This document shows, piece by piece, positions 1,706 through 31,800 of a stretch of 59,741 nt of DNA (its first letter is position 1; each line of letters opens with the position of its first letter). The DNA is from a virus. The stretch spans positions 45,544 to 105,284 of the IMG/VR virus record IMGVR_UViG_3300030101_004148. One strand, given 5' to 3'. The notes beneath the pieces were generated by a model that made no database searches, had not been told where the DNA came from, and worked only from the letters and a program-made list of their open reading frames with translations. The translations under genes were made by a program, and so were the position numbers.

Positions 1706-2161
1706 TTATTTATTTATTGATTTCCCTTTTTCGTAGCTACGCCCACCGAAATAAGCTGCGGTGATTGTTATGAGTAACATTTTCAAAAGTTCCTTCCATT
1801 CATCATCAACTGCAAAGTTAATAAATCCTGAGTCAATAAATATAAGCACAACTGTAGATACAAATAAAAAAATCAAAGTTAAAGGTCGAACTGATTTGGA
1901 TAATTTATTATCGCTTGACATATCTGCTGACCAACGCTTTGAAACCTCTTGCATTTCTACTTGCTGAGCCTGGTATAATAATTCTTGTAATTTTATTTTA
2001 TCTTCAGCTGGCACATCAGCTTTTGTGATTTCTGCCAGGGCTTCTTTTGGGTCTGTAACACCTTCAAGCACTTTACCTAATGTAGGGTTGACAGTAGCAG
2101 CCACCCCTAAGAGTAGTTTGCCCACGACCGTATCTTTGAATTTTTTTTTCTTATTTTCCAT
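1706..2161 (-). CDS. Holin, 3TM (GTA-holin-like) family
   Basis: Protein of 151 aa with an amphipathic N-terminal half (residues 10-85) and two clear hydrophobic segments near residues 93-112 and 124-140, ending in a basic tail. The signature EVSKRWSADMSSDN-x-LSKSVRPLTL matches the family of phage and gene-transfer-agent 3TM holins, in which a conserved RW-D-SD and RPL segment precedes the membrane hairpin. Holins time lysis by opening the inner membrane so the endolysin can reach peptidoglycan. The amidase at 4326-4751 on the same strand is the natural partner, although basic-protein genes lie between them. Confidence 0.8.
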   Translation of the reverse strand: MENKKKKFKDTVVGKLLLGVAATVNPTLGKVLEGVTDPKEALAEITKADVPAEDKIKLQELLYQAQQVEMQEVSKRWSADMSSDNKLSKSVRPLTLIFLFVSTVVLIFIDSGFINFAVDDEWKELLKMLLITITAAYFGGRSYEKGKSINK

Positions 2162-2162
2162 A

Positions 2163-2675
2163 TTAACATCTCCACCTTCTTCGAGCTTGTCTAATTCTCG
2201 AGTTTGGATTATTTCTTGTTTTTGCGCTGGATCTTTTTAGTTGACCTAAACTTCTTGCGCAATACGATTTTCTTCTTGTTGCTCTCTTGCCTGTTGGGCT
2301 TTTTTCTGTAACGGCTGTTTTTAACTTAGAGCCAGGATTTGCTTTTCTATAAGCTCTAACACCTTTTTCCGTCATGCCAGCACCTTTTTTGGTTGGTCGA
2401 AAATTAGCCTCCTTACCCTTGGTAGTTTTTCTTATTCCCATTTTAGGTGAAACTGCTTTTGTGTTTTTAACAAATTGTTTTCCTAAAGCACCTTCTTTTT
2501 TCTTTTTTCTTGCTGTGGCAGCTAAAGCTCTTTTAGAAAGTCTTTCAGCTTTTGCTCTGGGTAAACATCGGTCAGGGTTTTTTTTGTTTTTAGACGTGCC
2601 ACATTTACCCTTGATTTTACCATCAGTACCAATGCGAACCCAATCTTGTCTTACCCATTCTTTAAGCTTTCCCAT
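2163..2675 (-). CDS. Very basic small protein, DUF6321-like C-terminus (170 aa)
   Basis: Arg/Lys-rich protein starting MGKLKEWVRQDWVRIGTDGK, followed by a CGTSKNKKNPDRCLPRAKA segment with paired cysteines. The second half contains KGAGMTEKGVRAYRKANPGS and RRKSYCARS and ends RQARRRWRC, a layout typical of a phage protein family of unknown function (DUF6321-like by memory of the motif). There is no membrane segment. The stop is 2 bp before the holin start, and the ATG overlaps the end of the metallopeptidase-like gene by 14 bp. It probably binds nucleic acid or is a minor virion protein; neither is demonstrated. Confidence 0.65.
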   Translation of the reverse strand: MGKLKEWVRQDWVRIGTDGKIKGKCGTSKNKKNPDRCLPRAKAERLSKRALAATARKKKKEGALGKQFVKNTKAVSPKMGIRKTTKGKEANFRPTKKGAGMTEKGVRAYRKANPGSKLKTAVTEKSPTGKRATRRKSYCARSLGQLKRSSAKTRNNPNSRIRQARRRWRC

Positions 2676-3030
2676 ATTGTTTAGTTTTATTATACACTTC
2701 TTTCTCCCACGGTAAATTTAGGTTGTGTGTATTAATTTTACTTACAGGTATAATTTGCTCTTGTGAGAATGGTGTTGGCTTGTAGTAATAATTGTTATGG
2801 TCGAACCTTAGCTTTCCGCTTCTCATTTGTTTCAGATGCTCTGTCTCATGTTTTACTGCTCTACGCTTGTTTTGAGCAGACATTTTTTCTTGAATCTCTA
2901 TAACACCGTTTGGGTTAATTTGGCCCATAACATTCTTAGGCAATGGAAGCTCTTTGACTAATCTGTCTCCGTTTGAGTGTTCCTTGCTAAATCCAAATAC
3001 TTCTTTGACATTTTTTAACTTGAAGGGCAT
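2662..3030 (-). CDS. Putative zinc metallopeptidase (HExxH), 122 aa
   Basis: The protein contains AVKHETEHLKQM with H61-E62-T-E-H65, the HExxH zinc-binding and catalytic motif of zincins. A downstream conserved LPWEKE (residues 106-111) could supply the third ligand. The compact fold between these elements (KLRFDHNNYYYKP) resembles small phage proteins of the minigluzincin/M48-M78-like type. It sits within the cluster of basic minor proteins and could process virion or host proteins, or remodel capsid components. No signal peptide is present, so it acts in the cytoplasm or virion. Protease activity is inferred from the motif only. Confidence 0.6.
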   Translation of the reverse strand: MPFKLKNVKEVFGFSKEHSNGDRLVKELPLPKNVMGQINPNGVIEIQEKMSAQNKRRAVKHETEHLKQMRSGKLRFDHNNYYYKPTPFSQEQIIPVSKINTHNLNLPWEKEVYNKTKQYGKA

Positions 3031-3038
3031 TTAGTTTG

Positions 3039-4010
3039 TTATCTTAATTTAGCTTGCAGCTTATCAATCTTCTTTGATTTTCTTTTTACTGCCTTTCCTT
3101 TCTGTTGCTCGAAAGCATACAAATTATTTATCTTTCTTATTTTTCTTTTGTCACTATCAGGCAGGCCTGAAACAAACTTTCTGCTGTTTCTAATTTTTTC
3201 GTAATCCTCTTTACCATATTTTTTCATGAGTTCTTTAGCTAATCCCATTCTTTCTTTTTTCATAGAATCTATTTTACCCATCTTTCTGACAGCAGCTTTA
3301 GTTTTACGACCAACTTTATTTTCTATTCTTTTCTTTTTTCTATCAGAGAGTTTTGGTAAAGTCATGTTACCTTTAGGTACCTTCTTCATCATTTTAGGTT
3401 TTTTATATGAAGCACTTACTTTAGCTTCTCCAGCTTTTCTTACCTTTTTAATTATAGCTTTTCTTTTTGCTAAACCTTTTTTGTTTACTGGCTTTTTCCT
3501 TACATTCTTTTTTCTTGCTTCGGTTAAAGACAGCTTAGGTTTTTGGACTTCTTTCGATTTAGTTGTTTTTGGAACTACACTACCGTCTTTATTTATTCTT
3601 TTTTTTCTGTTAAGCGTGCTTTTTACTTTCTTTTTAACTTTAATTTTTTTCTTTCCACCTATTTTGGTTTCTTTATATTTAGTTTTAGTTATTTTATCAT
3701 CATCGAAAGTAATTTTCTTGTCTTTGTATTCGCTAAAAACATCACCTACATCAGTTGACTTTTGTTTTTCTTTTGAACCCGATAGCCTTGGCTTTTTCAT
3801 AGCCATTTTAGGTTTTCTTTTTTTCATGGTTGCCCCAGCAATTCTATCAGCCTTTGTTGGATTTGGGTTGTTATCAATACCAGCCTTTACACTAAGCATA
3901 CCAAAGTTTTTTGGATCTTTAGAAGCAAGAGGTTTTTTCATAGCCATCATTGGCTTCATCATAGCCATTTTGACTTTTTGTATAGCGTTTAACATCATAG
4001 GTTTTTTCAT
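3039..4010 (-). CDS. Large Lys/Met-rich basic protein, histone H1-like composition (323 aa)
   Basis: About a third of the residues are Lys or Arg, with little aromatic content and no obvious enzymatic fold. The N-terminus is MKKPMMLNAIQKVKMAMM, followed by KPMMAMKKP, and KPKMAMKKP recurs near residue 70. The middle contains KIGGKKKIKVKKKVKST and NRKKRINK blocks, and the C-terminal part (residues 220-323) looks helical with charged heptads. Composition suggests DNA condensation or packaging inside the capsid, or binding to anionic host targets. The N-terminal peptide is nearly repeated at the C-terminus of the 126-aa protein at 9201-9581. Function is unknown. Confidence 0.6.
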   Translation of the reverse strand: MKKPMMLNAIQKVKMAMMKPMMAMKKPLASKDPKNFGMLSVKAGIDNNPNPTKADRIAGATMKKRKPKMAMKKPRLSGSKEKQKSTDVGDVFSEYKDKKITFDDDKITKTKYKETKIGGKKKIKVKKKVKSTLNRKKRINKDGSVVPKTTKSKEVQKPKLSLTEARKKNVRKKPVNKKGLAKRKAIIKKVRKAGEAKVSASYKKPKMMKKVPKGNMTLPKLSDRKKKRIENKVGRKTKAAVRKMGKIDSMKKERMGLAKELMKKYGKEDYEKIRNSRKFVSGLPDSDKRKIRKINNLYAFEQQKGKAVKRKSKKIDKLQAKLR

Positions 4011-4013
4011 AGC

Positions 4014-4130
4014 TTATTTTTTTTTCTTTATCGATTTTAACATCCTATCAATTTTTCCAGCCTGCGCCTTATGCAAGGCGGATGCTTTTCTTAATTCAGA
4101 TGCTATTTTTCTTAATTTTTTTGTGTCCAT
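4014..4130 (-). CDS. Tiny basic helical protein (38 aa)
   Basis: ATG at 4130, stop TAA at 4014-4016; sequence starts MDTKKLRKIASELRKASALH and ends in KKKK. It is a single predicted amphipathic, strongly basic helix. The start codon overlaps the stop of the 54-aa gene by one base (TAATG), and the stop is 3 bp before the ATG of the 323-aa Lys-rich gene. This tight coupling and the shared composition argue that it is a real gene of the basic-protein cluster. No family is recognised. Confidence 0.5.
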   Translation of the reverse strand: MDTKKLRKIASELRKASALHKAQAGKIDRMLKSIKKKK

Positions 4131-4294
4131 TATTTTTTTCCTTTTGCACCCTTTGCATAATTAGGGTCTTTACAATATTTACTTGCTGCTAAGTTAGCAT
4201 AGGCTGAGGGGTACTTGTCAAAAGTACGTTTGGCCCAAGCAATTCCTGCTGGACATATCTTTCCGCCTTTCTTTTTTTTAGTTCTTCCTGCCAT
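4130..4294 (-). CDS. Small conserved marine-phage protein (54 aa)
   Basis: ATG at 4294, stop at 4130-4132. The sequence begins MAGRTKKKKGGKICPAGIAW and continues with KRTFDKYPSAYANLAASKYC and a KDPNYAKGAKGKK tail. The pattern CPAGIAWAKRTF..YPSAYAN..AS.YCKDP is one I recognise from many marine phages, where it is an uncharacterised small protein. It has two Cys spaced about 28 residues apart, a basic start and a basic end. Translationally coupled to the 38-aa gene downstream. Function is unknown; probably a virion-associated or DNA-binding accessory. Confidence 0.65.
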   Translation of the reverse strand: MAGRTKKKKGGKICPAGIAWAKRTFDKYPSAYANLAASKYCKDPNYAKGAKGKK

Positions 4295-4325: not shown

Positions 4326-4751
4326 TTATAGGTCACAATATTCTGCGTGGGCATCAAAACAAGGGCAAGATTTCGCTGCAAACTCATTGTGTCCGTGTAT
4401 AGTTGCTTCGGGGTGTAACTTCTTAAGAACCTTCAACAATAAAATTAAAGTTTCTTTTTGTTCTGGAGTTCTTGTGTCTTTTGCAACCCAATCACCATCT
4501 GGCCCTCTTTCAGCTTCAACGCCACCGATATATACTATACCAATAGAGTTTTTATTCATTTTCTTTACATGAGCTCCGATTTGTTCTACAGGCCTACCGT
4601 ATTCCATACTACCATCTAAAGCTATTACATAATGATAGCCTATTCCTCTCCATCCTCTTTTTTTATGCCATTTATCTATTGTTGCTGCTGATATGTTCTT
4701 GCCCTCTTGAGTTGCAGAACAATGAACAACTATTTTATTTATTTCTCTCAT
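4326..4751 (-). CDS. N-acetylmuramoyl-L-alanine amidase (T7 lysozyme-like endolysin)
   Basis: Amidase_2/PGRP-type fold of 141 aa, close to the usual 140-150 aa. Zinc ligands expected from T7 lysozyme are present: H10 in VVHCSAT, H121 in IHGHNEF and C129 in AAKSCPCFD. The catalytic Tyr (Y39 in GYHYVI) and Lys (K127) are also in place. The enzyme cleaves the bond between MurNAc and L-Ala in peptidoglycan at lysis. No signal peptide, so release needs the holin at 1706-2161. The ATG overlaps the stop of the outer-membrane-protein gene by 4 bp (ATGA), making it the last gene of a four-gene coupled module. Confidence 0.9.
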   Translation of the reverse strand: MREINKIVVHCSATQEGKNISAATIDKWHKKRGWRGIGYHYVIALDGSMEYGRPVEQIGAHVKKMNKNSIGIVYIGGVEAERGPDGDWVAKDTRTPEQKETLILLLKVLKKLHPEATIHGHNEFAAKSCPCFDAHAEYCDL

Positions 4752-5977
4752 AATCTTACATTTAATCCAACACTACTATTATATATTTCTGAATCCCAAA
4801 ACTTAGTATATTCTCCTTCAAAGAAGATACCTAATGTTTTAGTTATTTTCCATCCAATTATCAACCCACCTTGATAATCACTCCACTGTTTACCGTCTAA
4901 CTGGTTGTTGTGGCCCCCGAGCCCCCAGCTATCACGATGCAAGTAACTGAAGTCGACATTACCTCTAAAATATTTATGATAAGGAAGAATCCAGTTTGCG
5001 TAAGAGTGAAGCCAGAACTTAGACTTGTAGTGATAGAAATCAAAACCAACGATAGGTGCGTACTCTGCAAATGCGTCAAGCTCCGCCCATCTCTCTTGAT
5101 TAAATCGGTTCATCAGGTTTCCAAAAACCAAATCTCTAAACTGTCTGTCAGTCCAGGCTATAATTTCGCCATTAGGGTCAGTCCAATACCAATCAAAAAA
5201 TTCATTACCGTTTTCATCAGTTGAAGAATAATACCAATCATCATATCCATAATCAAATCCTAATGTATACCAATAGTTTACTGGGTTGCCGTCTTCATCA
5301 ATCTCGTTCAACCAAAGTTCAATCGGATTATATCCAAAAGCTTTTTGATGAGTTCTTGCAATTACTCCTGCTGAAATACTAAACTTTTTACCAATAGGAA
5401 GACGTGCCCTCACCTCTGCACTCTGATATTTAAAATCAACATTTCCAACCTCTCTTTGCTCTATTTTTACTATATGATATTTACCGGTGTGTCTTAGAAA
5501 GTATCTTGAGTTTGTAAACACATCTGATCGTTGTCTTTGTTTTTCCCAATGCAGCAAATATTCAAATCCGTTTACAGCAGCAGTTGGAGAAGATAATGCT
5601 TTTAAATTTTCCGTACCATCGTAATAATTATTTGCTTTGATTTCGTAATCAAATCGTGCTAATTTACGAATACCAAATCCAGCTCTATAATCAAAAGGAT
5701 GATATACTGTCTCATCAACAACTTGAGGAACTGCGTATAAATTATCAGGATTTGTTCTAATAAAATAATCAGGATAAGGAGTTTCGTAAGCGTTGCCAAT
5801 ATCACCCGCTACATATACAGTTGCGTATTTGAAAACATCATTATAAACGCTCTTGAAAAAATTTTTGATTTTGTATTTTCTTGTGATTTTATTTTCCAAA
5901 CTTTTATCATAATCAATTACTTGTGCGTTTACGCTAAAAGTTATAAGTATAAAGATGAGGCTAATAATTTTTTTCAT
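4748..5977 (-). CDS. Predicted secreted outer-membrane beta-barrel protein (409 aa)
   Basis: The N-terminus MKKIISLIFILITFSVNA|Q is a clear signal peptide with the Bacteroidetes-like A|Q cleavage site. The mature protein is rich in Tyr, Trp, Phe and Asp and in alternating strand patterns (for example KFSISAGVIART, GGLIIGWKITKTLGIFFEG), with acidic loops such as DEDGNP. It ends SSVGLNVRL, a plausible C-terminal beta-signal. It therefore looks like an integral outer-membrane barrel made by the phage. It lies 2 bp after the thioredoxin-like gene and overlaps the amidase gene. Possible roles are outer-membrane disruption at lysis, blocking superinfection, or a surface change; none is proven. Confidence 0.65.
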   Translation of the reverse strand: MKKIISLIFILITFSVNAQVIDYDKSLENKITRKYKIKNFFKSVYNDVFKYATVYVAGDIGNAYETPYPDYFIRTNPDNLYAVPQVVDETVYHPFDYRAGFGIRKLARFDYEIKANNYYDGTENLKALSSPTAAVNGFEYLLHWEKQRQRSDVFTNSRYFLRHTGKYHIVKIEQREVGNVDFKYQSAEVRARLPIGKKFSISAGVIARTHQKAFGYNPIELWLNEIDEDGNPVNYWYTLGFDYGYDDWYYSSTDENGNEFFDWYWTDPNGEIIAWTDRQFRDLVFGNLMNRFNQERWAELDAFAEYAPIVGFDFYHYKSKFWLHSYANWILPYHKYFRGNVDFSYLHRDSWGLGGHNNQLDGKQWSDYQGGLIIGWKITKTLGIFFEGEYTKFWDSEIYNSSVGLNVRL

Positions 5978-5979
5978 AT

Positions 5980-6318
5980 CTAAAATTTGCTTTCTATTAT
6001 TTTATCAATTTGTTCTTCTATCAATTCAATCGAATCTTCTGGTAATTTAAGGGAAATTCCACTTTCAATTCTAAGCACCTCATCTCCATTGTGGTATAAA
6101 ATTAAAGTAGGTAAATACTTTATTTTTTCCTTTTCAAATATTTTTTTCTTTTCAGTTATGTGGAAAGTGTAAATATTGTGGCTTTTGAATTTTTTTAAAG
6201 ATATTTCAGATTCAGAAGTAAATGGAGCAGAAAATTGAACAACAGATATGTCAGACTTATAATCTTGTGCTGACAGTGTAAATACAGGTAGTAGTAATAA
6301 TATTATCCATATTCTCAT
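5980..6318 (-). CDS. Secreted thioredoxin-fold-like protein lacking the CxxC site (112 aa)
   Basis: The signal peptide MRIWIILLLLPVFTLSA|Q directs it to the periplasm. The mature part has a thioredoxin-like order: SVVQFSAPFTSES where thioredoxins have the WCGPC strand-turn, then KIKYLPTLILYHNGDEVLR, which matches the cis-Pro strand and following hairpin. Both catalytic Cys are missing (Thr/Ser in their place), so redox activity is not expected and a binding or chaperone role is more likely. It overlaps the upstream 103-aa membrane gene by 4 bp and is followed after 2 bp by the predicted barrel. Similar proteins may exist in other marine phages; function unknown. Confidence 0.6.
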   Translation of the reverse strand: MRIWIILLLLPVFTLSAQDYKSDISVVQFSAPFTSESEISLKKFKSHNIYTFHITEKKKIFEKEKIKYLPTLILYHNGDEVLRIESGISLKLPEDSIELIEEQIDKIIESKF

Positions 6319-6626
6319 TTCTTTCTGCTTATCTCATAGAGTCTTTCGTCCATTTTTTCTAAAGACTCTTTGATTTCATTTACATCTTCTTTAATATTAG
6401 TTACATCAGACTGTATATTATCAATAGTGGATCTAACTAATTCATCTTTGTATTGAAACTCTATTGAGCTTACCTCTGGTTTAGGCAGCTCCATAGCTTG
6501 TTGAATTTGAGCTTGAAGTGTATAATACATACCAATAAGCGAAGCTAAACCTATGACGGAAGCGACAATTTCTTTAATACTTAAAGTAAACTTACTTTCT
6601 GGCGATAGGTTTTTATCTTGGCTCAT
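6315..6626 (-). CDS. Membrane-anchored coiled-coil protein, i-spanin-like topology (103 aa)
   Basis: A short charged N-terminus is followed by one transmembrane segment (about residues 18-37, IVASVIGLASLIGMYYTL). The C-terminal 60 residues are charged and heptad-like (TIDNIQSDVTNIKEDVNEIK), predicting a coiled coil outside the membrane. This is the topology of an i-spanin such as Rz, but no Rz1-type lipoprotein gene is embedded or adjacent. The stop overlaps the start of the thioredoxin-like gene by 4 bp. It is the first gene of the module ending with the amidase. It could instead be a phage membrane scaffold of other function. Confidence 0.6.
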   Translation of the reverse strand: MSQDKNLSPESKFTLSIKEIVASVIGLASLIGMYYTLQAQIQQAMELPKPEVSSIEFQYKDELVRSTIDNIQSDVTNIKEDVNEIKESLEKMDERLYEISRKK

Positions 6627-7459: not shown

Positions 7460-7600
7460 TTATTTTTTACAAATACATTCTGCAACTGGGCAGTTTTTTA
7501 CATTTACAATTAATTTAGATATTAGCCAGTTCCACTTGCATAATAGCTTTACCCAAGAACTCTGAATCCAATATCCTAATTTTACTAATAGTTTTCCCAT
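7460..7600 (-). CDS. Small Trp/Lys-rich protein (46 aa)
   Basis: ATG at 7600, stop TAA at 7460-7462; starts MGKLLVKLGYWIQSSWVKLL and ends CPVAECICKK. It alternates hydrophobic and basic residues, suggesting an amphipathic membrane-binding helix, and has four Cys, three of them near the end. It lies 5 bp upstream of the 51-aa gene and 2 bp after the 62-aa gene. Close packing supports it as real; no family recognised. Confidence 0.45.
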   Translation of the reverse strand: MGKLLVKLGYWIQSSWVKLLCKWNWLISKLIVNVKNCPVAECICKK

Positions 7601-7602
7601 TT

Positions 7603-7791
7603 TTATTTTTTTGGTGGAGGCACTCTATCTATTTTTCTTGGAACATAAGGTATACTTATAAATGAAGGTACCGCCTTAACTTCCGTAGATTTTGCCTTTT
7701 CAACTTCTACTTTAATTTTAGTTTCTTTTTTAACCACTGGTTTTTTTACCACTGACTTCTTTTTTGAAACTGGTTTTTTTGCTTTCGCCAT
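7603..7791 (-). CDS. Lys/Val/Pro-rich low-complexity protein (62 aa)
   Basis: The start at 7791 (MAKAKKPVSKKKSVVKKPVV) is preferred over an upstream in-frame codon at 7839 because the latter would overlap the neighbouring gene and lacks the typical start. The first half is composed of K-K-P/V repeats; the second half is SFISIPYVPRKIDRVPPPKK. Disordered, positively charged, no Cys. Member of the basic-protein cluster; it could bind nucleic acid or the capsid interior. Confidence 0.5.
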   Translation of the reverse strand: MAKAKKPVSKKKSVVKKPVVKKETKIKVEVEKAKSTEVKAVPSFISIPYVPRKIDRVPPPKK

Positions 7792-7807
7792 GTTATTAAA
7801 TTTAATT

Positions 7808-7999
7808 TTACTTTGCCTTACAGCCAAAATTATTGGCATAGTTGGCCATTTTTACTACAGCAGGAGAAAATTTATCTGTATTCTTCATAACTGCTGCTGC
7901 CGCCTGACAAGTTGACTTCTTAGGCATATTTTTTTTTACCCAATTAGTAAACTTACCTTGATTCTTTTCCTTTATTTGAGGAAATTTTTTTTTAGCCAT
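7808..7999 (-). CDS. Small conserved phage protein (63 aa)
   Basis: Basic N-terminus MAKKKFPQIKEKNQGKFTNW followed by STCQAAAAVMKNTDKFSPAV and KMANYANNFGCKAK. The pattern STC-AAAAVM-N ... S-VVKMANYA-NFGC is one I recall in other marine phages as an uncharacterised helical protein with two conserved Cys. Its ATG shares base 7999 with the stop of the 69-aa gene upstream. No function known. Confidence 0.6.
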   Translation of the reverse strand: MAKKKFPQIKEKNQGKFTNWVKKNMPKKSTCQAAAAVMKNTDKFSPAVVKMANYANNFGCKAK

Positions 8000-8208
8000 T
8001 ACTTAGAAATAAGTTTACTCAAGTGTGACTTAACACTACTTGGATAATGCTTTTCATATTTCATTGAGTGGTCGCCACCGTATGCGTGACCGTACATTTT
8101 TTTAGACATAGCTTTTGACTCGTCTCTTCTGTCTTTAAAAGACTGAGACTTTTTTCCATGCTTTGCGCCTAATGATTCGTCCAGTCTGTCGTTATAACCT
8201 TGTGCCAT
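7999..8208 (-). CDS. Small conserved charged protein (69 aa)
   Basis: MAQGYNDRLDESLGAKHGKK start, then SFKDRRDESKAMSKKMYGHA and a His-rich GGDHSMKYEKHYP stretch. The MAQGYNDRLDESLG start is recurrent in marine phages. Two DESx repeats (RLDESLG and RRDESKA) each follow an Arg. A TATATTTG promoter-like element lies 21 bp upstream (8229-8236). Function unknown. Confidence 0.6.
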   Translation of the reverse strand: MAQGYNDRLDESLGAKHGKKSQSFKDRRDESKAMSKKMYGHAYGGDHSMKYEKHYPSSVKSHLSKLISK

Positions 8209-8228
8209 AATATTTATTTTTAATTATA

Positions 8229-8236
8229 CAAATATA
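8229..8236 (-). promoter_or_regulatory. Bacteroidetes-type -7 element TATATTTG
   Basis: On the minus strand this reads TATATTTG, matching the Bacteroidetes -7 consensus TAnnTTTG, in the 54-bp gap upstream of the 69-aa gene. A -33 TTTG is not evident. It would drive the small-gene run from 8208 downward. Confidence 0.45.
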
Positions 8237-8262
8237 CTAATTTATTAATTTTACTTTTAGCC

Positions 8263-8775
8263 TTAGTCATAAGGGTTAAAAGTTCTTTTTCTTTTTCTTC
8301 TTGTTTCTCTAATTTTTTTTCTTCCCTTGCTTCCTTGAAACAAGTCTTTGTTTTTGCTTTGCCTTACAACTTTTACATTGCCAATTTTATTTCCTACTCT
8401 AATTACTGGGTCAGGCCCTGGTACAGATATAGTACTCAACCCTTGACTTTTAAGAACACTTACCTTTTTTTGCTTTTTCCTTTTTTGCATTTTAGGCTTT
8501 CTCATTGACATTTTAGCTTTTTTTCGTGTAGGCAAAGGGCCGCCTTTTCCATCGTCATCCATAAACTTAGTTTTTACGAACTTTACTGATCCGTCTTTTT
8601 GTTTGACGTATTTTCCCATGTTGTTTGGGGCATAAGCCTTTTGTGTATTAAGAAGTGCTGCACCTACGCCCAAAGCACCAGATAATAATTTTTTACCAGC
8701 TCTTTTAAGTCCGGCCTTAACCATTTCTTTTACTGCAACTCTTTTTGCTTTTTTCCTGTCTTTTAATTTGCTCAT
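8263..8775 (-). CDS. Very basic Lys/Arg-rich protein with KxMxMRKPKM motif (170 aa)
   Basis: Starts MSKLKDRKKAKRVAVKEMVK, then a short Ala/Gly/Leu helix (LLSGALGVGAALLNTQKAYA) that could insert in or lie on a membrane. A basic stretch KKAKMSMRKPKMQKRKKQKK follows, the same Lys-Met pattern as in three neighbouring proteins. The C-terminus is RRKRKRTFNPYD. The ATG overlaps the stop of the 45-aa gene (ATGA). It may be a DNA-condensing or membrane-active minor virion protein; not established. Confidence 0.55.
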   Translation of the reverse strand: MSKLKDRKKAKRVAVKEMVKAGLKRAGKKLLSGALGVGAALLNTQKAYAPNNMGKYVKQKDGSVKFVKTKFMDDDGKGGPLPTRKKAKMSMRKPKMQKRKKQKKVSVLKSQGLSTISVPGPDPVIRVGNKIGNVKVVRQSKNKDLFQGSKGRKKIRETRRKRKRTFNPYD

Positions 8776-8909
8776 CTTCCTTGTCCTCTATATAATCGAC
8801 CCGCATAGTATTTACCGTTTACTTGTTTTGTGTGACGGTTTTTACTGTGAATACCTGGTCTTTTTTTATGAGACTTTTGTTTATAGTTATTAATTACTTT
8901 GCGTGGCAT
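8772..8909 (-). CDS. Small basic protein ending YRGQGR (45 aa)
   Basis: ATG at 8909, stop TGA at 8772-8774. The sequence MPRKVINNYKQKSHKKRPGI followed by HSKNRHTKQ and YYAGRLYRGQGR matches a recurrent small phage protein pattern (KKRPG-H-K ... Y-GQGR). It is directly adjacent to the 90-aa gene and overlaps the 170-aa gene by 4 bp, so it is translated in a coupled run. Function unknown; nucleic-acid binding is plausible from charge. Confidence 0.6.
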   Translation of the reverse strand: MPRKVINNYKQKSHKKRPGIHSKNRHTKQVNGKYYAGRLYRGQGR

Positions 8910-9182
8910 TTACATTTTTTTCTTCATCGCCATTGATGGCTTTTTCTTCATCGCCATTTTAGGCTTTTTCTTCGCCATCATATTTGGGTTTACTGCACAA
9001 CCTACATATTTTCTTCCTCTGTAGATTCTACTTTTTCTTGGACAAGCTCTTGCTTTGCTTTCAAGTTTTCTTGCTCTATCGAGCTTACGTTCCATTTTTC
9101 TGATTTTACCTTTGCTTCTGGCTTTATCAGCTTGGTCGTACTTTCTATCTGCTCTACGCATTAGTCTTTCGTATCTTGGCAT
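8910..9182 (-). CDS. Arg/Lys-rich helical protein with C-terminal KKPxMAMKKK repeats (90 aa)
   Basis: The N-terminal 50 residues (MPRYERLMRRADRKYDQADK and following) are a charged helix with R-K-D-A periodicity. A central CPRKSRIYRGRKYVGCAV hairpin-like segment carries two Cys. The C-terminus has tandem KKKPKMAMKKKPSMAMKKKM repeats. This repeat resembles the KPKMAMKKP of the 323-aa protein. Upstream leader contains TAACCCTTTAAAT. A role in genome condensation or capsid packing is inference. Confidence 0.55.
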   Translation of the reverse strand: MPRYERLMRRADRKYDQADKARSKGKIRKMERKLDRARKLESKARACPRKSRIYRGRKYVGCAVNPNMMAKKKPKMAMKKKPSMAMKKKM

Positions 9183-9200
9183 AATTTTAAATTTAAAGGG

Positions 9201-9581
9201 TTATTTTTTATAATACATTTTTGGTTTCTGAATTGCATTTAACATCATTGGTTTCTTCATTGACATCTTTGCTTTTTTCTCTTTTATAGTATCAACTACT
9301 TTCTTGCCTTCTTTGATAGCGCCTGAAATATTTCCTTTTCTAACATTTCTATAAGTTCCATATAATCCTTGAGCAACTCTTCCTACTTTACTGTCCTTGA
9401 CTTTATTCACTGTGTCTTGAACTTTTTTTACAGTTCTTCCGACTCCAGTTTTGCCTGAACTAATAATCTTGCTCCTTCGTTTGCTTAATTTTTTAACCTT
9501 TTTGTTTTTGCCTCGTATACCGGCTTTCACAATTTTATCTTGTAGTTTTGAAATTCTTTTGTTAGCTATTTTGCTGGGCAT
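9201..9581 (-). CDS. Basic protein with C-terminal KKPMMLNAIQK tag (126 aa)
   Basis: Starts MPSKIANKRISKLQDKIVKA; highly basic, with a helical centre (TVKKVQDTVNKVKDSKVGRV) and a Gly-containing patch. The C-terminus is KMSMKKPMMLNAIQKPKMYY plus KK. Eleven of its residues, KKPMMLNAIQK, are identical to the N-terminus of the 323-aa protein at 3039-4010. It is the first gene of the minus-strand basic cluster and has a TATCTTTG element 24 bp upstream. Function unknown. Confidence 0.55.
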   Translation of the reverse strand: MPSKIANKRISKLQDKIVKAGIRGKNKKVKKLSKRRSKIISSGKTGVGRTVKKVQDTVNKVKDSKVGRVAQGLYGTYRNVRKGNISGAIKEGKKVVDTIKEKKAKMSMKKPMMLNAIQKPKMYYKK

Positions 9582-9640: not shown

Positions 9641-10063
9641 ATGGGTGCTGCACCAGACCATGACTATTTAAAATACTGGCGAGTCATAAAATACTTTGCG
9701 AAGAGAAAATACCAGGTATCATCTGCTGACTTGGATATGCTTCTGTTTCTATATAGTGAGAAATACTTTAACAAAACAACATTTAAAGAGTACGGTCAGC
9801 TATTGTCCTGGGATGCCAATAGGTTTTATCGATTGATAAAACAGGGATATATACAAAAGTGGAGAGAAAAGACTGGCAGGCAGGCTACATTATATCAGCT
9901 TACATATAAAGCAAAACGCATGATAAGAAACATATATGACAAGTTGAATGGTGAGGATTACCCGACCACCTATGTAAACAACCCTTTATTTAAACATGAC
10001 GTTTCTTTTAGAGATAAAGTCTATAGGAATTTTATGAAAAGTATAAATGAAGAGGATTTATAG
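9641..10063 (+). CDS. Putative winged-helix DNA-binding protein (140 aa)
   Basis: A lone plus-strand gene inside a minus-strand block. Residues 20-100 look like a winged helix: helices around SSADLDMLLFLYSEKYFNK and FKEYGQLLSWDANRFYRLIK, then a strand-turn-strand WREKTGRQATLYQLTYKAKR, much as in MarR/PadR-like regulators. No ligand domain is evident. It is divergent from the basic-protein cluster and convergent with groES, overlapping its end by 6 bp. It could repress or activate late minus-strand transcription. Regulator identity is inference. Confidence 0.55.
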   Translation: MGAAPDHDYLKYWRVIKYFAKRKYQVSSADLDMLLFLYSEKYFNKTTFKEYGQLLSWDANRFYRLIKQGYIQKWREKTGRQATLYQLTYKAKRMIRNIYDKLNGEDYPTTYVNNPLFKHDVSFRDKVYRNFMKSINEEDL

Positions 10064-10315
10064 AACTACAACTACATCTCTTTCTTGAATAATAGTATAT
10101 GTAGTGTCTTCTATAATCATTTTGTGCCCGGCTGCATTATCATAATAAATAACATCCCCCTCATTCATTGTATCAACGTGGTCTCCCACTTTGTATACTT
10201 TCGCTTTATGATAACGTAATGAGTTTATATCTTCATTAGACAAAAGCAAACCAGACTTAGTCTTATATTCTTCATTTATTTCTTGTATCAGTATATACTT
10301 ACCTATCGGTTTCAT
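10058..10315 (-). CDS. groES: GroES-like co-chaperonin (85 aa)
   Basis: Starts MKPIGKYILIQEINEEYKTK and continues SGLLLSNEDIN, the position of the GroES mobile loop; LLL replaces the usual IVL that binds GroEL. The GroES-like beta-barrel features follow: KVYKVGDHVDTMNEGDVIYY, the hairpin AGHKMIIEDTTY, and a final TIIQERDVVVVL as in the ESDILAIV end of GroES. Length (85 aa) is slightly shorter than the usual 95-97. It is the last gene of a groEL-small gene-groES run and probably caps the phage GroEL, assisting folding of virion proteins such as the capsid. Stop overlaps the convergent plus gene. Confidence 0.8.
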   Translation of the reverse strand: MKPIGKYILIQEINEEYKTKSGLLLSNEDINSLRYHKAKVYKVGDHVDTMNEGDVIYYDNAAGHKMIIEDTTYTIIQERDVVVVL

Positions 10316-10457
10316 TTACTGCTTTTTCTTTAATAGCTACATAAGTTTTTGTTTTACAAGAAATCACATATCCTCTGCGTCTTAGAAGCTCTATAGCTTT
10401 CTCTTCAGCTTCTCTTTCTTTTCTTGCTAACTCAAATAAATAATTGTGTATTGGCAT
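10299..10457 (-). CDS. Small charged protein between groEL and groES (52 aa)
   Basis: ATG at 10457, stop TAA at 10299-10301, overlapping the groES start by 17 bp. It starts MPIHNYLFELARKEREAEEK, a charged helix, followed by AIELLRRRGYVISCKTKTYV. Gap to groEL is 10 bp. The overlap suggests translational coupling of groES. No known family recognised; a regulator or adaptor of the chaperonin is only a possibility. Confidence 0.5.
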   Translation of the reverse strand: MPIHNYLFELARKEREAEEKAIELLRRRGYVISCKTKTYVAIKEKAVNETDR

Positions 10458-10467
10458 AATATTAATT

Positions 10468-12081
10468 TTAAGATTTAATCCTTGCGTGTGTTACTATGGC
10501 GTTTGTACTTAGAATCGTAGAGGCAACGCTGCTTGAATTTAGCAAAGCGTTTTTAGTTACTTTGAGCGGATCAATTATACCTATGGTATACATATTTCCA
10601 TACTCCTCTTCTTTTACATCAAACCCATAATTATATTTCTGTAACTCTCTAAAGTCTTCAAGTCTGTTTTCAATCTCTGTTTTATCGAGTCCAGAATTTT
10701 CAATGATTTGTTGCATAGGCGCTCGAATGGCTGCCTTTACTATTTGCATTGCTGTTGAATAGTCTTTATCGTGAGACAATAAGCTTTTTAATTTGAATGA
10801 TGCGTTATACAAAGCAAGCCCTCCACCCGGAAGTATACCTTCCTCGAGTGCGGAACGCACTGCACATACCGAGTCATCGACTCGGTCAAATTTTTCTTTT
10901 TGCTCCACATCACTATTACCTCCAACATAAATACATCCGATAGCACCAGCTAAGCTGGCGATTCTTTCGCTGATAAATTTTCTATCAACTTGTTCCGCTG
11001 TATTTTCTTTGGCTTCTTGTAATTGTTTGATACGCTCTTTTACCTCTTCAGTTGGTTCAGCGTTTTTAATTAAGACTGTGTTGTGTTTACCTGCAATAAT
11101 TTTATCTGCATGACCTAAATCATTTATGTTAAGTAATGACAAGTCATCACCGGTAGCTTCTGAAAAATATTTTGCACCTACGGAAAGCGCTATGTCTTGC
11201 ATCAGCTCGTGTTGTTTATAACCAAATGAGGGTGCTGAAACATTGCAAAGCTTTAAGTTATTTCTCATTACGTTTGCTGCTAATGTATTTACGACATTAG
11301 GTGAACAGTTTGCAATTATTAAAAGCGTTTCGTTATTTTGAATGACCGGCTTTAATACATTTTCTATTTGTAATATATTGTCTATGTCGTGGTCACAAAC
11401 TAAAACTTTTACATTTTCATAAATACACTCATCTTTCTTTTGATTATTAATAAACAAATTAGAAGTGTAGCCTCTATCTATTTTTATTCCGTTTGTAATC
11501 TCTGCATAAGTCTCGTGGTTTTGAGATTTCTCAACTGTTAAGATTCCGTCTTTACCAACCTTCTCGTAAGCCTGGTGAATTATCGAGCCAATCTCTGAAT
11601 CATTGTTGGCAGAAATTTTAGCTACGTTTAATAAACTCTTTTTGTTTATCTTTTTAGAATTTTTTTCTAACAACTTAATAACTTCCTGCACAATATCTTG
11701 TATATACCTAACAACTTGTGTGGTGTTATTAGATGATGAAATAAATTGTGTTCCAGCTTTCATAAAGGCTTCAGCTAAAACGATAGCTGTAGTGGTTCCG
11801 TCTCCGGCAGAGTTTGCAGTTCTGGTTGCTGCATCTTTCATCATTTGTATTGCTAAGTTTTCGACTGGATCATCCAAGTATATTCCTTTGGCTACGGTAA
11901 CTCCGTCTTTGGTAATTGTAATTCCTCCTAAATGTTCGGGTGATTCAATAAGAACTGTGTGGCCGCTTGGGCCGAGCGTACTTTTTACTGCTTTCGCAAT
12001 ACTGGTAATTCCTGAAATAAGTTTCTCTCTACCGTTTGTACCGAAATGTAAGTCTTTCGGAATATATCCTTGTTTTGTCAT
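10468..12081 (-). CDS. groEL: GroEL-like chaperonin, 60-kDa class (537 aa)
   Basis: Near full length (GroEL about 548). Diagnostic ATP-binding and hydrolysis motifs are present: STLGPSGHTV near residue 35, ITKDGVTVAK, SAGDGTTTAIVLAEA near 90, ISANNDSEIG and VDDSV-AVRSALEEGILPGGG, including the catalytic Asp of the VEDAL position. The C-terminus ends HARIKS without the GGM repeat tail, as in several phage chaperonins. It probably forms a ring that folds phage structural proteins. It is followed by a 52-aa gene and groES. A TATCTTTA element lies at 12105-12112, 24 bp upstream. Confidence 0.95.
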   Translation of the reverse strand: MTKQGYIPKDLHFGTNGREKLISGITSIAKAVKSTLGPSGHTVLIESPEHLGGITITKDGVTVAKGIYLDDPVENLAIQMMKDAATRTANSAGDGTTTAIVLAEAFMKAGTQFISSSNNTTQVVRYIQDIVQEVIKLLEKNSKKINKKSLLNVAKISANNDSEIGSIIHQAYEKVGKDGILTVEKSQNHETYAEITNGIKIDRGYTSNLFINNQKKDECIYENVKVLVCDHDIDNILQIENVLKPVIQNNETLLIIANCSPNVVNTLAANVMRNNLKLCNVSAPSFGYKQHELMQDIALSVGAKYFSEATGDDLSLLNINDLGHADKIIAGKHNTVLIKNAEPTEEVKERIKQLQEAKENTAEQVDRKFISERIASLAGAIGCIYVGGNSDVEQKEKFDRVDDSVCAVRSALEEGILPGGGLALYNASFKLKSLLSHDKDYSTAMQIVKAAIRAPMQQIIENSGLDKTEIENRLEDFRELQKYNYGFDVKEEEYGNMYTIGIIDPLKVTKNALLNSSSVASTILSTNAIVTHARIKS

Positions 12082-25577: not shown

Positions 25578-25803
25578 CTTTTTTGTGCTGCACCAACTCT
25601 GAGCATTTTTCATAGTCTTCAATACCAGAAAAATATTCTATTAAAACATCAAACACATCATCTTGCATAGAAACCACAGGTAATGTTGGGTTAAATATAA
25701 ACGCAGTTTGGTCATCTTTCTCCAGCATTTCTTCATAAGAAGACTTGCCAGTCAGAACGCTGTAGCTGTCCATCATACATTTGTGTTGGTTTAGTTTCAT
25801 CAT
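25471..25803 (-). CDS. Hypothetical protein, end of the minus-strand late block (110 aa)
   Basis: Starts MMKLNQHKCMMDSYSVLTGK; contains SSYEEMLEKDDQTAFIFNPT and FDVLIEYFSGIEDYEKCSEL, which look like a small helical phage protein. The last 35 residues lie opposite the convergent early gene and read less protein-like, so the functional part may end near residue 75. ATG shares a base with the stop of the giant gene. Confidence 0.5.
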   Translation of the reverse strand: MMKLNQHKCMMDSYSVLTGKSSYEEMLEKDDQTAFIFNPTLPVVSMQDDVFDVLIEYFSGIEDYEKCSELVQHKKVNSFCNSISPLEAYKNGRLASQQYGNQKGKNISNL

Positions 25804-28800
25804 TATTGTAAATCTGCTGGTACACTTCTTTGACCTCCGCTTCTTTTTAAATCAGCTGGCACACTTCTTTCAGACTCACTTCTTCTTAAATCAGGCGGCA
25901 CTCTTTTCAGGTATTCTTCTTCCCATTTCTTAACTTGCTCAGCGGTTGGTGGCCTTTTTCCAAATCTTTCTTTTATTATCATTCTTCTTATATCTTTATA
26001 AAAAGGTATCAAACCAAAATTTCCTAAAGCCTCTATGCTCATTCGATTTGTAAGCTCATCCATAGCTCTTTGTTGTGCCTCAGGCGTTTTTCTTGTCAGC
26101 TTTCGGGAACCAAGTATTACGCTTCGCTCTGCGGTTTTAAACAAAGGTGCGTAAGGCCCAGCGAACAGATATAAAAACTTTCTAACAGGATCCTCAAAAT
26201 CTTCCATTTGGAATTGATTAAACGTAATAGCGTGTTTGTAAGGATTATATTCCTCGTTGTTTCTTAGGTCTGCAAGTAATGGTTCATTCAGACCATACTC
26301 AAGTGCAAATGCTGGTAAAGCATTTGGTATATTACCAAAAGAACCTCTTGTAATAAGCTGAGTTATAGCACCTACCAGTTGTCTTTGAATTAACAATTCA
26401 AAGTCTTCCTCTTTGTCTTCATCTTCAATTCCTAAAAGCTCTGTGTCTAATAATTGTGTCATAGCTGTATATAAAACCATATACATACTCATTCTCATTG
26501 TTACACCAGTCAGCAAGCCTAAAGCCTGTCTCTTGTTTAGCTCACCCTTTCCGTTCATATATATTGCATTTACAGCTCTTCTTGCTGTGTTGTATTCAAA
26601 TAAAGTAAATCTTGCCATATACCCATTCGCCAATCTATACATATCTTTTAAACCATCTTTTCTTCTAATATTTTTCTCTACACCTTCAAAAGGATTTGTT
26701 GATGTTGTAATAGTAATACTAAAATCATCGGCAGCATTTCTTGCCCTATCTCTTGCCAATCTATATTGTTCATCAGCAAGAATACCTTTACCTTCGGCAA
26801 AATCCCTTAAATCTTTTACTTTAATTTTTATTTCTTTGCCATTTATGTCTTTAGTGGCTTTGGCAAATGCTTTTGCAAATGCTCCATAGTATAAGGGTCT
26901 TGCTAATATCTGGTCTGGCCCGGACATAAGTTTTTGTGATACATAATTAAATGCTTCCCTCATTTGTGCAGGGCCTAAGCCGTCAAGTTTCCCAAGCTGG
27001 TTCATTATGGCGTTAACTGCTTCTCCCTGACCTTCTCTTGTTTTAATAAAATCACCATAGTTATCATACTTACTCTTTATTGTGCTTTCATCAAACAATT
27101 TTGTGCCTTGAGAAGAATCAAGTCTATTTAATATTTCCAAGCCTAAATGTCTGTCAACATAAGCAAACTTTCCGAACTCCTTTATTCCTAAAGCTGCTAT
27201 ATCAGGAGCTGCCACCATCATAGACATATTTGCTCCAAGTTCAGCTGCTGCTCTTGGTGCTGAGGCTAAAGTAGCTTGATAGCCATAACGAGCTATCGCA
27301 GCGGCCGGAGATTCTTCGCTTAGTACGCCCAAACTATTTATGTATATTGCGTCATCTGCTATTTTTGTTGATTGTGCCAAAGCAGTCACCACAGCTTTTC
27401 GTATATCAGTGGACTTCATATCTTCATACTTTGCAGTCAATTTATTAAGAGTCCTTGCTACTCTTCTATTAGCTGGTGTCATATAATAATCCAATAAGGT
27501 CATTTGCGCACCTCGTAAGGCTGAAGAAAACGGATTAAAGCTAATTGCCTTGGAACCAGGTGTTCTACTAATTAGATTGCCTGCTTTCGTTGTTTCCGAA
27601 TTAATATACTTATCCTTCATCTTAACATCCGTCTCTTGTAAAAATGTCTCATTACCAACGACTTGGTTGTGGCTATAAGAATTTAATAAATCAACTCTGT
27701 TCCCGTGTACAACCGATGAAAGATAAAGAGCTTTATCCGCAAATGATCCATTGACTTTGTCTAATATTTTCTTTGCCTCTTTCATTCCAGGAGTAAAATC
27801 ATCCATTAGTTTTTTATAATTTACACCTTTATCTGTCACGTATTTTTCCCTAAGGGTTTCTAACTGCTCAAGATTTTTTCCTTGTGCGTATTTGCTTTCG
27901 TCTTTAATAGTTTTGTCTAAAAACTCTTCAGCGGGTGGTGCTACTTTATTGTAAGTGCCATCTTCTAATTTATTAGACTCTGCTATTTCATAAAGCTGTG
28001 CAAGTCTTATCATCTTACCTCTGTAAGATATTTTATTTTTATCTTTAATTGTTCCGCTCAGCTTTTTCATGGCTGAATCTACATCTGCTTTTATCTTAAT
28101 AAATTCTACTTTAGCTTGTTCAAAAGCTCTTGACTTTGGCGCAACAACATTATTATATACAGCTTTATTATTAAAGTTACCTACAACCTCATCAATAAAT
28201 GCTTTTGGGTTAGATCGAATCCTATCAATTTCTACCCCCGCCTTGACAGTTCTGGATCTTGATGGTGTCTTGGTGATAGCTAATTTTATTTTTCTTAGTA
28301 TATCTCTTTGTTTTAACAACCATGGTCTCTCTTTGATTTTATCAATTCTTTTATCAAGTATATCAAGAGCGTTATTACTTTCAACATCAAGCTGAAGGTC
28401 TAATGCGTTCTTTGAAACCACTCCTTGTCTTATATTATCTTTTACTCTGTTTAGTAATTTTAATTTAGAAACGTCAACGTTTCCGTCTTTCTTTTCTTTG
28501 ACTAAACCTTCAATTTCAGCTCTGGTTAATCTATTTAAAAACTTTGCAATCTTTCTGCTGTCTTCATCATTTAACATATTAATCTCTTCTGAGTTTAATT
28601 TATTATCTAAAACCTCGTTGACTTCTGCATCTACATCTACTTCTTTTACTTCAGTAGATTTGCCAACCTCAGCGTCAACCTTGTCAACATTTTCATTAAC
28701 AGCGTTAATAATTTCGTTAGCTCTTTGCATATAAGAGTTTACGTTGTCGGTAAGATTTAACTCTTTACCTGTCGAAAAATCCTGAACTAATTCTAAATAC

Positions 28801-31800
28801 GAATCGAGTAACGGCTCAGGAACCGCATACTGACTAAAAGAGAAAACATCTTGCAAGGCTGTAAATATATCTTGCTGTACTGCACCGGTCTTTTGTCTTA
28901 CACCTTTTTTGGCTTTTCTTCTTTTAGCTAATGATACTGAATTATATTTTTCAGCAAGTTCGGCTTTTGATAATACTTTGTCTACAAACTCTAATACATT
29001 TTTTAAATTTGAAGGGTTTGATAAATCTCTTGTGGCTCTAATCTTATTGATTATAGCTGTTAGCTGAGAGCCTTTGATTTTAGTAGCTCCTTTTCCTAAT
29101 GTTTTAATTTCTCCTATTAAAGTCTTAAGACCTTCCTTTTGTGCAGCAACACCTTTTCTCGCTGCTTTAGCCTCTAATTTAATTTGGTCAACTAAAGCGT
29201 CCTTTTCATTTACCGTAATCTTTTTAGGTTTTATACCTAATACCTTTTTTGGTGAAGGAGATGGTTTCTTTTTTGTCTTAACATCTACATTTCTTGCTTC
29301 AGCTCTTGCTTCATCAAAAGCTCTGGCTGCCGCTTCTACATTAGGCATACGGTTTGGATCTACCGAAAGAACAGCCTTTATGTTTCTTGGTGTAGGTTTC
29401 AATCCTGTTAATTCTGTAAACCTGGACTCTAAATCTGAAAGAAACTCTTTTCCAGGGAGGTTTGATTGTATAAATTCATTGATAGCTTTTCTGTTCGGGA
29501 AGTTTGAAACCAAATCTATTACATCGTTAGTGTCTATATTCGCAACACCTTTCTCTTCACCAATTACATCAGCCCAAGCATCTTCTATATTAGCACCTTC
29601 CTTTTCAACCCATATCCTTGATACATTGGTTTCTTCTGGTCTGGTTCCAGTCATGTCTATCCAGGACTTTCTTGAAAATGTAATAATTGGTCTACCCTCT
29701 GGCATTAAAGCAGTTAAACCTGTGTCAGGAAATAATGTGTCTAAAAATTGAGCGTCTGCTTTTTGTTCTCTTACCATATTTATAGTCTCTGCAACCTCTC
29801 TTACATTGCCTGATGAAACCACATCCGCAACATAATCTTGTCCTGTTACGGTCTCAGGCGTAGGTTGAGCTACATCTTTTGGTTGCGCTCTTTTTGAAAC
29901 CATTTTTTTAATAGCTTCAGCTTGTTTCTCATTTTTTTCTAAGGCTAATATGTTTCTTCCTGCATCCAATGCGCCTGTTACTGTCGAACCACTGCCTGCA
30001 AATGGATCAAACACTAAAGCTCCTTTTTCTGTAGACCTTTCAATTACAGCTTGTAAAAACTCTGAAGGTTTAGAGGTTGGATAACCGCCTTTCTGCGGGT
30101 GTTTGAAAGCATAGTATTCATTAAGTCTGGTTCCTTCGTTTACCTTACCGCTTTTCGTAAATGAGAAAACATATTCAGAAAGAACAGTACCTCCAACTTG
30201 GTGTGGCGTTCCTGTGTTGTATAGTTTTTGAAATGTAGCTACACCAGCAGATTGTAAATCTGTATCGTTTAAGCCGGTTAAGTAATTTGAAACAACATCT
30301 TGCGTTCCCTTTTGTGCAGAAATCATAAATATTAAAGGAGAGTTATCTGTCTTTAAAAGTTTTTCTGCGTCTTTAACAAACCCAGCAAACTCTTCAGCTG
30401 ATATTTTAGCGAAGTCAGCAAAATTTCTGTTACCACCCGTTTGACCTGGGCTATCATAAGGTGGGTCTAAGAATATCATATCGAATTTTACTCCTTCTTC
30501 AGCTAATTTTTTAACCTCATTCAAAGCGTCAGCTGCATGGATAACAGCAGCTGTTTCTCCCTCAGCTGTCTTAATTGTATAAACACCCGCAGCAACTCTT
30601 TTTATTTCACCAGTCTTTGCTCCTTGTCCTAATATTCTTCTCACAGTAGGGGCTGGCAGACCTGAAACCTCAGTTATTTCTTTGATTGATGCCTTGTCTC
30701 TTTTACCTAATATTTCAATTACTCTGTCTTTCTGAGTTAACTTTGGTTGGCCAGCAGGTCTCTTATCTTCAAGTATTTGAGCTTTTTCACGAGCAAGTGC
30801 CGGTGTGTCAGGGGTTACTTTGTCTGCTCTTTTTCCTGCGTTTACATCTAAAATATTTTTTAGATAATATTCTTCAGCAGCTTTAGTTTGAGCTGGAGTT
30901 GCTTTTTTCTTTGTTCCCTTTAATGTTACATCTTTAATCGAACCATCAGGCTTATAATTAATTTGTACATTACTTTGTCTACCTGTTTTAGTTGGAACCA
31001 CTGTAGGTTTCTGAACATCAACTTGTTGTGTTAAATTTTCAAAAGGAACAGAAGGCTGGGTTGGTCTTTGAATTGGAGCTTCTACTAAATTGGCAACTAC
31101 CGTAGTGGTATTTGTGTTGTTGTCTTTATCATTAAAAGTTACTACTACATCTGCTACATTACCTGCTTCTGACTCTCTAACCTCCGTAACTTCAATACTT
31201 TGTAGTGTGGATCCTTCTTCAAGATTTTCTTGTATATTACTTCGTTCTTCAGGTGATATAATGTACTTATTTCCCAAAGCAAGTTGCTCGTTCAGAGCTG
31301 ATTTAAACTTGGTAGTTTTTACACCCCCCTCTTCAACTACTGTCTCTACTTGCGTTTGCGCTTCCGGGCTGTTCGCAATTTCAGTTTCGACTTGGGTCTC
31401 ACCCTCTGGGGCAACTTGCCCCGTGGTGTCTCCTTCTCCCACTGCTTGGCTATCTCCGGGAGATTCTTGTACATCCACTTTCGCTGCGCTTGACTTTTGA
31501 ATGGCATCTGCTTTTTCGTTTATCTGTTGTTCAGTCGGGTCAATTATCCCTTCTGCTTTTAATTCATCTAATGCTAATTTACGAACTTCTTGGGTACTTT
31601 GTTGAGGCGCTTTAAAGTAATCAGGACTTCTTAGTACCATTTTACCATCCACAACTTCGTATATATCATAGTTACTAATGTCTCTTGCAGGAGTATTTGG
31701 TTTAGGTAGCACTATGCCTCTGCTCTCTTCAACAGTTTCTCTGTTTATAAAACTTTCATTAGGCTGCAAGTCAATAGACTGTATAGTACCTGGTTTTGAA

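Follow-up and report, generated by a model that had tools for sequence, protein, structure and literature searches.

Outer-membrane passage is an open question for many phages of Gram-negative hosts, and for Bacteroidota phages above all. According to a figure cited in PMC12819732, ~13% of Gram-negative Caudovirales have no identifiable spanins, which leads one to expect an unknown component, and Bacteroidetes phages have been reported with unimolecular spanins only (PMC12596118). The question arises for a locus in the virus record IMGVR_UViG_3300030101_004148, of which we analyzed a stretch of 59,741 nucleotides (positions 45,544 to 105,284; hereafter the window). A first-pass annotation had described there four coupled genes whose predicted products span the envelope, and had suggested either an outer-membrane disruption system or a superinfection-exclusion system.

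The four open reading frames were all found on the minus strand, overlapping or 2 nt apart as that annotation had described. The gene for a coiled-coil protein (coil; 6315–6626, 103 aa) is followed, after a 4-nt overlap, by that for an exported thioredoxin-fold protein (5980–6318, 112 aa), then, across a 2-nt gap, by that for an outer-membrane β-barrel (4748–5977, 409 aa) and, after a second 4-nt overlap, by an Amidase_2 endolysin gene (4326–4751, 141 aa). The overlaps suggest that the cassette is translated as one unit. The amidase was recognized by PF01510 (3.2e-14; 53.8 bits against a cut-off of 26) and phrog_822 (1.7e-55), and it has neither a signal peptide nor a hydrophobic segment. A putative holin gene (1706–2161, minus strand; phrog_3427 holin, 1.4e-18) lies downstream of the cassette. 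For the other three products, Pfam, PHROG and other family searches gave no assignment beyond a weak thioredoxin match, and their proposed anatomy was borne out instead by predicted folds, profiles and export signals. Numerous small proteins very rich in Lys, with MAMKKP-type repeats, are encoded around the cassette (2163–4294 and 7603–9581, minus strand). By eye, a GroEL-like gene lies beside a GroES-like gene at 10058–12081 (minus strand), with this position conserved in many relatives, and a 2718-aa virion-type protein (25803–33959, minus strand) has an apparent DNA-methyltransferase-like DPPY segment.

The coil protein contains no cysteine and has a single hydrophobic segment by hydropathy (residues ~13–38), followed by a C-terminal heptad coiled coil in which 92% of the a/d positions are hydrophobic, compared to 10% at other positions. 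Family members differ by an indel of one heptad (alignment A3), and a 7-residue deletion is as expected of a coiled coil. An N-terminal transmembrane helix followed by a periplasmic, often coiled-coil, domain is also the layout of the inner-membrane subunit of two-component spanins, and the coil protein, with a presumed N-in topology, resembles an i-spanin in this respect (PMC6139136). Family searches gave no usable assignment for it, and a search of 50,697 cultured-phage records returned no homologue.

The thioredoxin-fold protein matched the Pfam thioredoxin family below the cut-off (4.8e-4), and the profile of its own family matched PDB thioredoxins down to 4e-9. The structure model (pLDDT 84.5) has a minimal thioredoxin fold, and every Foldseek match listed for it is a thioredoxin or contains a thioredoxin-type domain. 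Model, Foldseek and profile agree on the β-α-β-α-β-β-α arrangement with a cis-proline, the cis-Pro-Thr pair being kept as an invariant P70 and a near-invariant T71. The CxxC motif of redox thioredoxins is absent from the window protein and from the rows listed of alignment A2, and the other large clade of the family has a single Cys near the old active site. The C-terminal Lys-Phe is nearly invariant. Among the 50,697 cultured-phage records only two matches were obtained, both generic Streptomyces phage thioredoxins. In the periplasm, the cysteine-less protein probably acts as a protein-binding adaptor rather than as a redox enzyme.

The barrel was modeled with AlphaFold2 on 69 homologues (mean pLDDT 70, pTM 0.63). 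This moderate-confidence model shows a signal peptide and a helix followed by approximately 12 long antiparallel strands, and its Foldseek/VIA matches in the PDB are outer-membrane barrels, including NanC, OmpG, CymA, TamA and BamA of E. coli and F. johnsoniae. The assignment to the outer membrane was upheld by these matches, and the possibility of a soluble or virion protein was rejected on the signal peptide together with the predicted closed barrel fold. The barrel is a new family: tblastn with three queries, the consensus being searched up to E 10, found no homologue in the 50,697 cultured-phage records, and the L117 barrel used as bait for distant relatives gave no matches. One match was found in BFVD (A0A516LKJ4, E 8e-25). 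Barrel homologues also occur on seven contigs in metagenome-assembled genomes labeled Alphaproteobacteria, Maricaulis, Bacteroidetes, Flavobacteriaceae and Woesearchaeota. These look like binned phage contigs rather than cellular homologues. The barrel-bearing phage contigs in the Alphaproteobacteria, Maricaulis and Woesearchaeota genomes (L112, L113, L115, L116) are likely misbinned, and in L112, L113 and L115 the coil, thioredoxin-fold and barrel genes are complete.

A glutamine directly following the signal peptide is the Q-rule of Bacteroidetes (PMC5837995). None of the 43 aligned thioredoxin-fold proteins lacks this residue (Q18), and at least 90% of the aligned barrels have it (Q19). In the window, these two were the only ORFs of at least 60 aa with a Q-rule signal peptide in a scan that used our own regular expression, not SignalP. 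Because both carry such signals, we infer Bacteroidota as the host phylum, and many phages carrying the three genes appear to infect Bacteroidota. The source record measures 105 kb, compared to ~60–68 kb for relatives, and stretches of its part outside the window (1–45543; L109–L111) match window genes at 77–79% identity. The record thus probably combines two related phages in a chimera.

Co-occurrence was surveyed in 2.9 million viral contigs, in which one barrel pattern scan yielded 289 tblastn-confirmed places and a thioredoxin profile scan 224. The coil gene lies directly upstream of the thioredoxin-fold gene in all 125 distinct loci with enough upstream sequence, and 124 of the 128 distinct thioredoxin-fold loci have an adjacent barrel gene, the exceptions being two contig ends, one partial locus and one locus without a barrel (L169). 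Two orders occur: coil–thioredoxin–barrel, as in the window (type A), and barrel–coil–thioredoxin (type B). Of ~128 distinct loci, 75 have a stop-to-start distance of −4 nt between the coil and thioredoxin-fold genes, and 25 have one of −1 nt. No thioredoxin-fold gene without a coil gene was found among the testable distinct loci, and a barrel without the other two was never seen where the sequence permits a test; the loci showing a barrel without both partners are all truncated where the fetched stretch ends. A second coil–thioredoxin pair is present in several loci (L160, L188, L194, L197–L199). The pair also occurs without the barrel in L169, L229 and L256, and the last two carry the divergent thioredoxin type found as second copies elsewhere. 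The co-occurrence check proposed in the first-pass annotation thus supports a strongly conserved unit of coil, thioredoxin-fold protein and barrel, hereafter the trio, which is absent from the cultured phages searched.

The fourth gene of the proposed module fared differently, being an exchangeable hydrolase that is not always an amidase. Where 2.5 kb of sequence is available downstream, 82 of 98 loci have a peptidoglycan hydrolase within 2.5 kb of the trio on that side (77 M15 peptidases of family PF08291 and 5 amidases); by gene order, these are 52 of the 66 loci of type A and 30 of the 32 of type B. The barrel and M15 genes are separated by a stop-to-start distance of −4 nt in 22 loci. One locus scored as lacking a hydrolase, L175, carries a member of a third endolysin family there (phrog_33083, 1.9e-16). 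When 20 records were checked, M15 was present in 15, Amidase_2 in one other, and both in none. The occurrence of unrelated hydrolase families in the same slot argues for a functional rather than a hitch-hiking linkage. Holins of the window family come after the hydrolase in many type A loci, and in many type B loci M15 is followed by a lipoprotein of the lipo18 family. Coil, thioredoxin-fold protein and barrel are inherited as one module, probably translationally coupled and usually located in the lysis cassette of marine Bacteroidota phages.

No classical spanin pair had been noticed at this locus, and the window scan agreed, giving no credible lipoprotein o-spanin or u-spanin. A six-frame lipobox scan of the window, based on a regular expression that recovered the genuine lipoprotein family lipo18 in other loci, returned only chance ORFs of 32–36 aa, none of them beside the coil gene. 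The window therefore offers neither an outer-membrane lipoprotein partner for a two-component spanin nor a lipobox ORF of plausible size for a unimolecular spanin with its N-terminal lipobox and C-terminal transmembrane segment. An embedded or remote o-spanin or u-spanin was rejected on the same scan, so that, as far as a regular-expression search reaches, the o-spanin that the first-pass annotation had named as a refutation did not turn up. The trio resembles two-component spanins of the lambda Rz/Rz1 type in its N-terminal transmembrane, periplasmic coiled-coil partner, its overlapping lysis-cassette genes and its envelope-spanning placement, and differs in having no lipoprotein, a coil without cysteine, a barrel as the outer-membrane part and a third, thioredoxin-fold member. 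With unimolecular spanins of the T1 gp11 type it shares the presumed role and the host phylum, whereas the window has no protein combining a lipobox with a C-terminal transmembrane segment.

The gene set, its order and spacing, the predicted folds, the export signals and the linkage to exchangeable hydrolases are directly supported. On this basis we tentatively favor the reading that the trio is an envelope-spanning accessory module of the lysis cassette, spanin-like but unrelated to spanins. The coil protein would be anchored in the inner membrane with its coiled coil in the periplasm, the thioredoxin fold would act as a periplasmic protein-binding adaptor, and the barrel would be placed in the outer membrane. 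The three proteins, presumably expressed late, would most likely assemble into a complex spanning the periplasm, which, after the action of holin and endolysin, may help to destabilize the outer membrane or to couple it. It is conceivable, although we regard this larger claim as doubtful, that a coil, a redox-dead thioredoxin adaptor and a phage barrel constitute a third class of outer-membrane breaching machine, a trans-envelope complex taking the place of spanins across a large group of marine phages of Bacteroidota.

Several loci depart from this pattern and bear on a different function, surface exclusion, in which the barrel would mask, replace or down-regulate a receptor, blocking superinfection or the loss of progeny on debris, while coil and thioredoxin-fold protein deliver or stabilize the barrel. 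Lambdoid phages offer a parallel in the Lc-type porins, phage genes for an outer-membrane barrel that could alter the host surface. The likeness is one of description, no relation in sequence having been seen, and here the barrel stands in an operon with a coil, a thioredoxin fold and an endolysin. In a near-syntenic 62-kb relative with window-like gene order (L081/G005), the coil, amidase and holin are present and the thioredoxin-fold protein and barrel are absent within the record, so these two are apparently not needed universally. The same 62-kb record has no credible lipoprotein, no other Q-rule exported protein and no visible replacement spanin; in this lineage the two proteins are either accessory, as surface exclusion would allow, or replaced by something unseen. 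The trio is also located away from lysis genes. At least nine distinct type A loci have it without an adjacent hydrolase, several of them among putative tail genes. In another phage group (L139, L152, L165, L166, L174, L201) it is inserted among putative tail genes at a shared position, the coil–thioredoxin pair of L169 lies among putative tail genes as well, and ~20 kb separate the trio from the amidase in contig 3300048110_000507. The tail assignment was made from a tape-measure-like gene (L169) and by reading the genes, the neighbors matching only PHROGs of unknown function.

The barrel itself offers arguments on both sides. With the orientation inferred from the C-terminal strand, the predicted outward loops match the periplasmic parts in conservation (0.676 versus 0.674), unlike the expectation for a pure anchor, and they are nearly gap-free (3% gaps), which is unusual for porins and compatible with surface exclusion. 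Conversely, a barrel tuned to a receptor might diversify, and the mean column identity observed over 69 sequences is 60%. Surface exclusion also has to account for the persistent coupling of the trio to endolysin genes of different families. The lack of a PADLOC match counts only weakly against it, since that library consists of defence systems. Overall, we consider surface exclusion unlikely, and the accessory lysis module remains our preferred reading.

The coil family can also be found with an amidase and a holin but without thioredoxin-fold protein and barrel (L081, L082, L085). In a further group lacking these two, a longer coil protein has its start overlapping the amidase end by 20 nt. 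Such long coils (L222:1389–1844, L236:2869–3324, L253:3274–3726) measure ~136 aa from an MSTKI start and consist of two coil segments and a linker. We considered the longer coil as a stand-in for the thioredoxin–barrel pair; this fits the amidase-overlapping coils, yet the L081 coil is short, so lengthening is not a general explanation. That the coil gene overlaps or abuts the amidase where the other two genes are absent indicates that its tie to wall hydrolysis is independent of them. These arrangements would suit a coil acting as a small holin-, antiholin- or XhlA/BhlA-type endolysin partner, the thioredoxin-fold protein and barrel then being accessory envelope-stress or permeability proteins. 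Very weak matches of the coil to XhlA (Pfam, E 0.12), a bacteriocin-type family (0.00067) and a holin family (0.0009) point the same way. These matches are, however, at the level of coiled coils, as is that to phrog_1625 (6.7e-4, in 2 of 38 members), and they extend to an Rz-like spanin, phrog_739 (2.6e-4). A separate holin is already present in the window, and a holin-partner role leaves unexplained why the thioredoxin-fold protein was never found without the coil in the testable loci. We regard this explanation as quite improbable.

A 46-aa Trp-rich peptide encoded upstream of the coil gene (7460–7600, minus strand), passed over in the first-pass annotation, is cationic (charge +7) and amphipathic (moment 0.48), with a conserved WN motif and a Cys-rich tail, and is a candidate membrane-active peptide. 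In its family 55 ORFs were found, nearly all near the cassette, with relatives there in ~50 loci. The gene lies within ~2 kb of the cassette and in several loci abuts its genes; depending on the locus, it abuts the coil start or lies between barrel and M15 or between thioredoxin-fold gene and barrel. A second family of small cationic proteins (46–79 aa; MWKLTKQYW or MWKLTK.YW; L160:6626–6766, L007:3294–3533, L204–L283) often occupies the gap between the trio and the hydrolase; in marine phages it is common beside genes for the coil, a hydrolase or a holin, including where the trio is missing. Disruptins of the phage phiKT type (PMC12819732) address the same missing-spanin problem and are similar to the 46-aa peptide in size and charge, whereas the trio consists of exported or membrane proteins, not of an amphipathic peptide. 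The peptide is thus a candidate disruptin-like outer-membrane disruptor, judged from its composition, and it is present in L081, which lacks thioredoxin-fold protein, barrel and spanin. That it performs this task while the trio does something else is the least probable explanation; the peptide has no signal peptide, was detected in only 52 of 171 coil-bearing loci and so missed in most trio loci, and has no homologue among cultured phages.

The trio offers a concrete three-gene candidate, with an exchangeable hydrolase slot and natural variants that lack some of its members, in a setting where it is abundant in uncultured marine phages and has no member among the cultured phages searched. If it is a component of lysis, or a phage-encoded guard of the host surface, either would be new for these phages.
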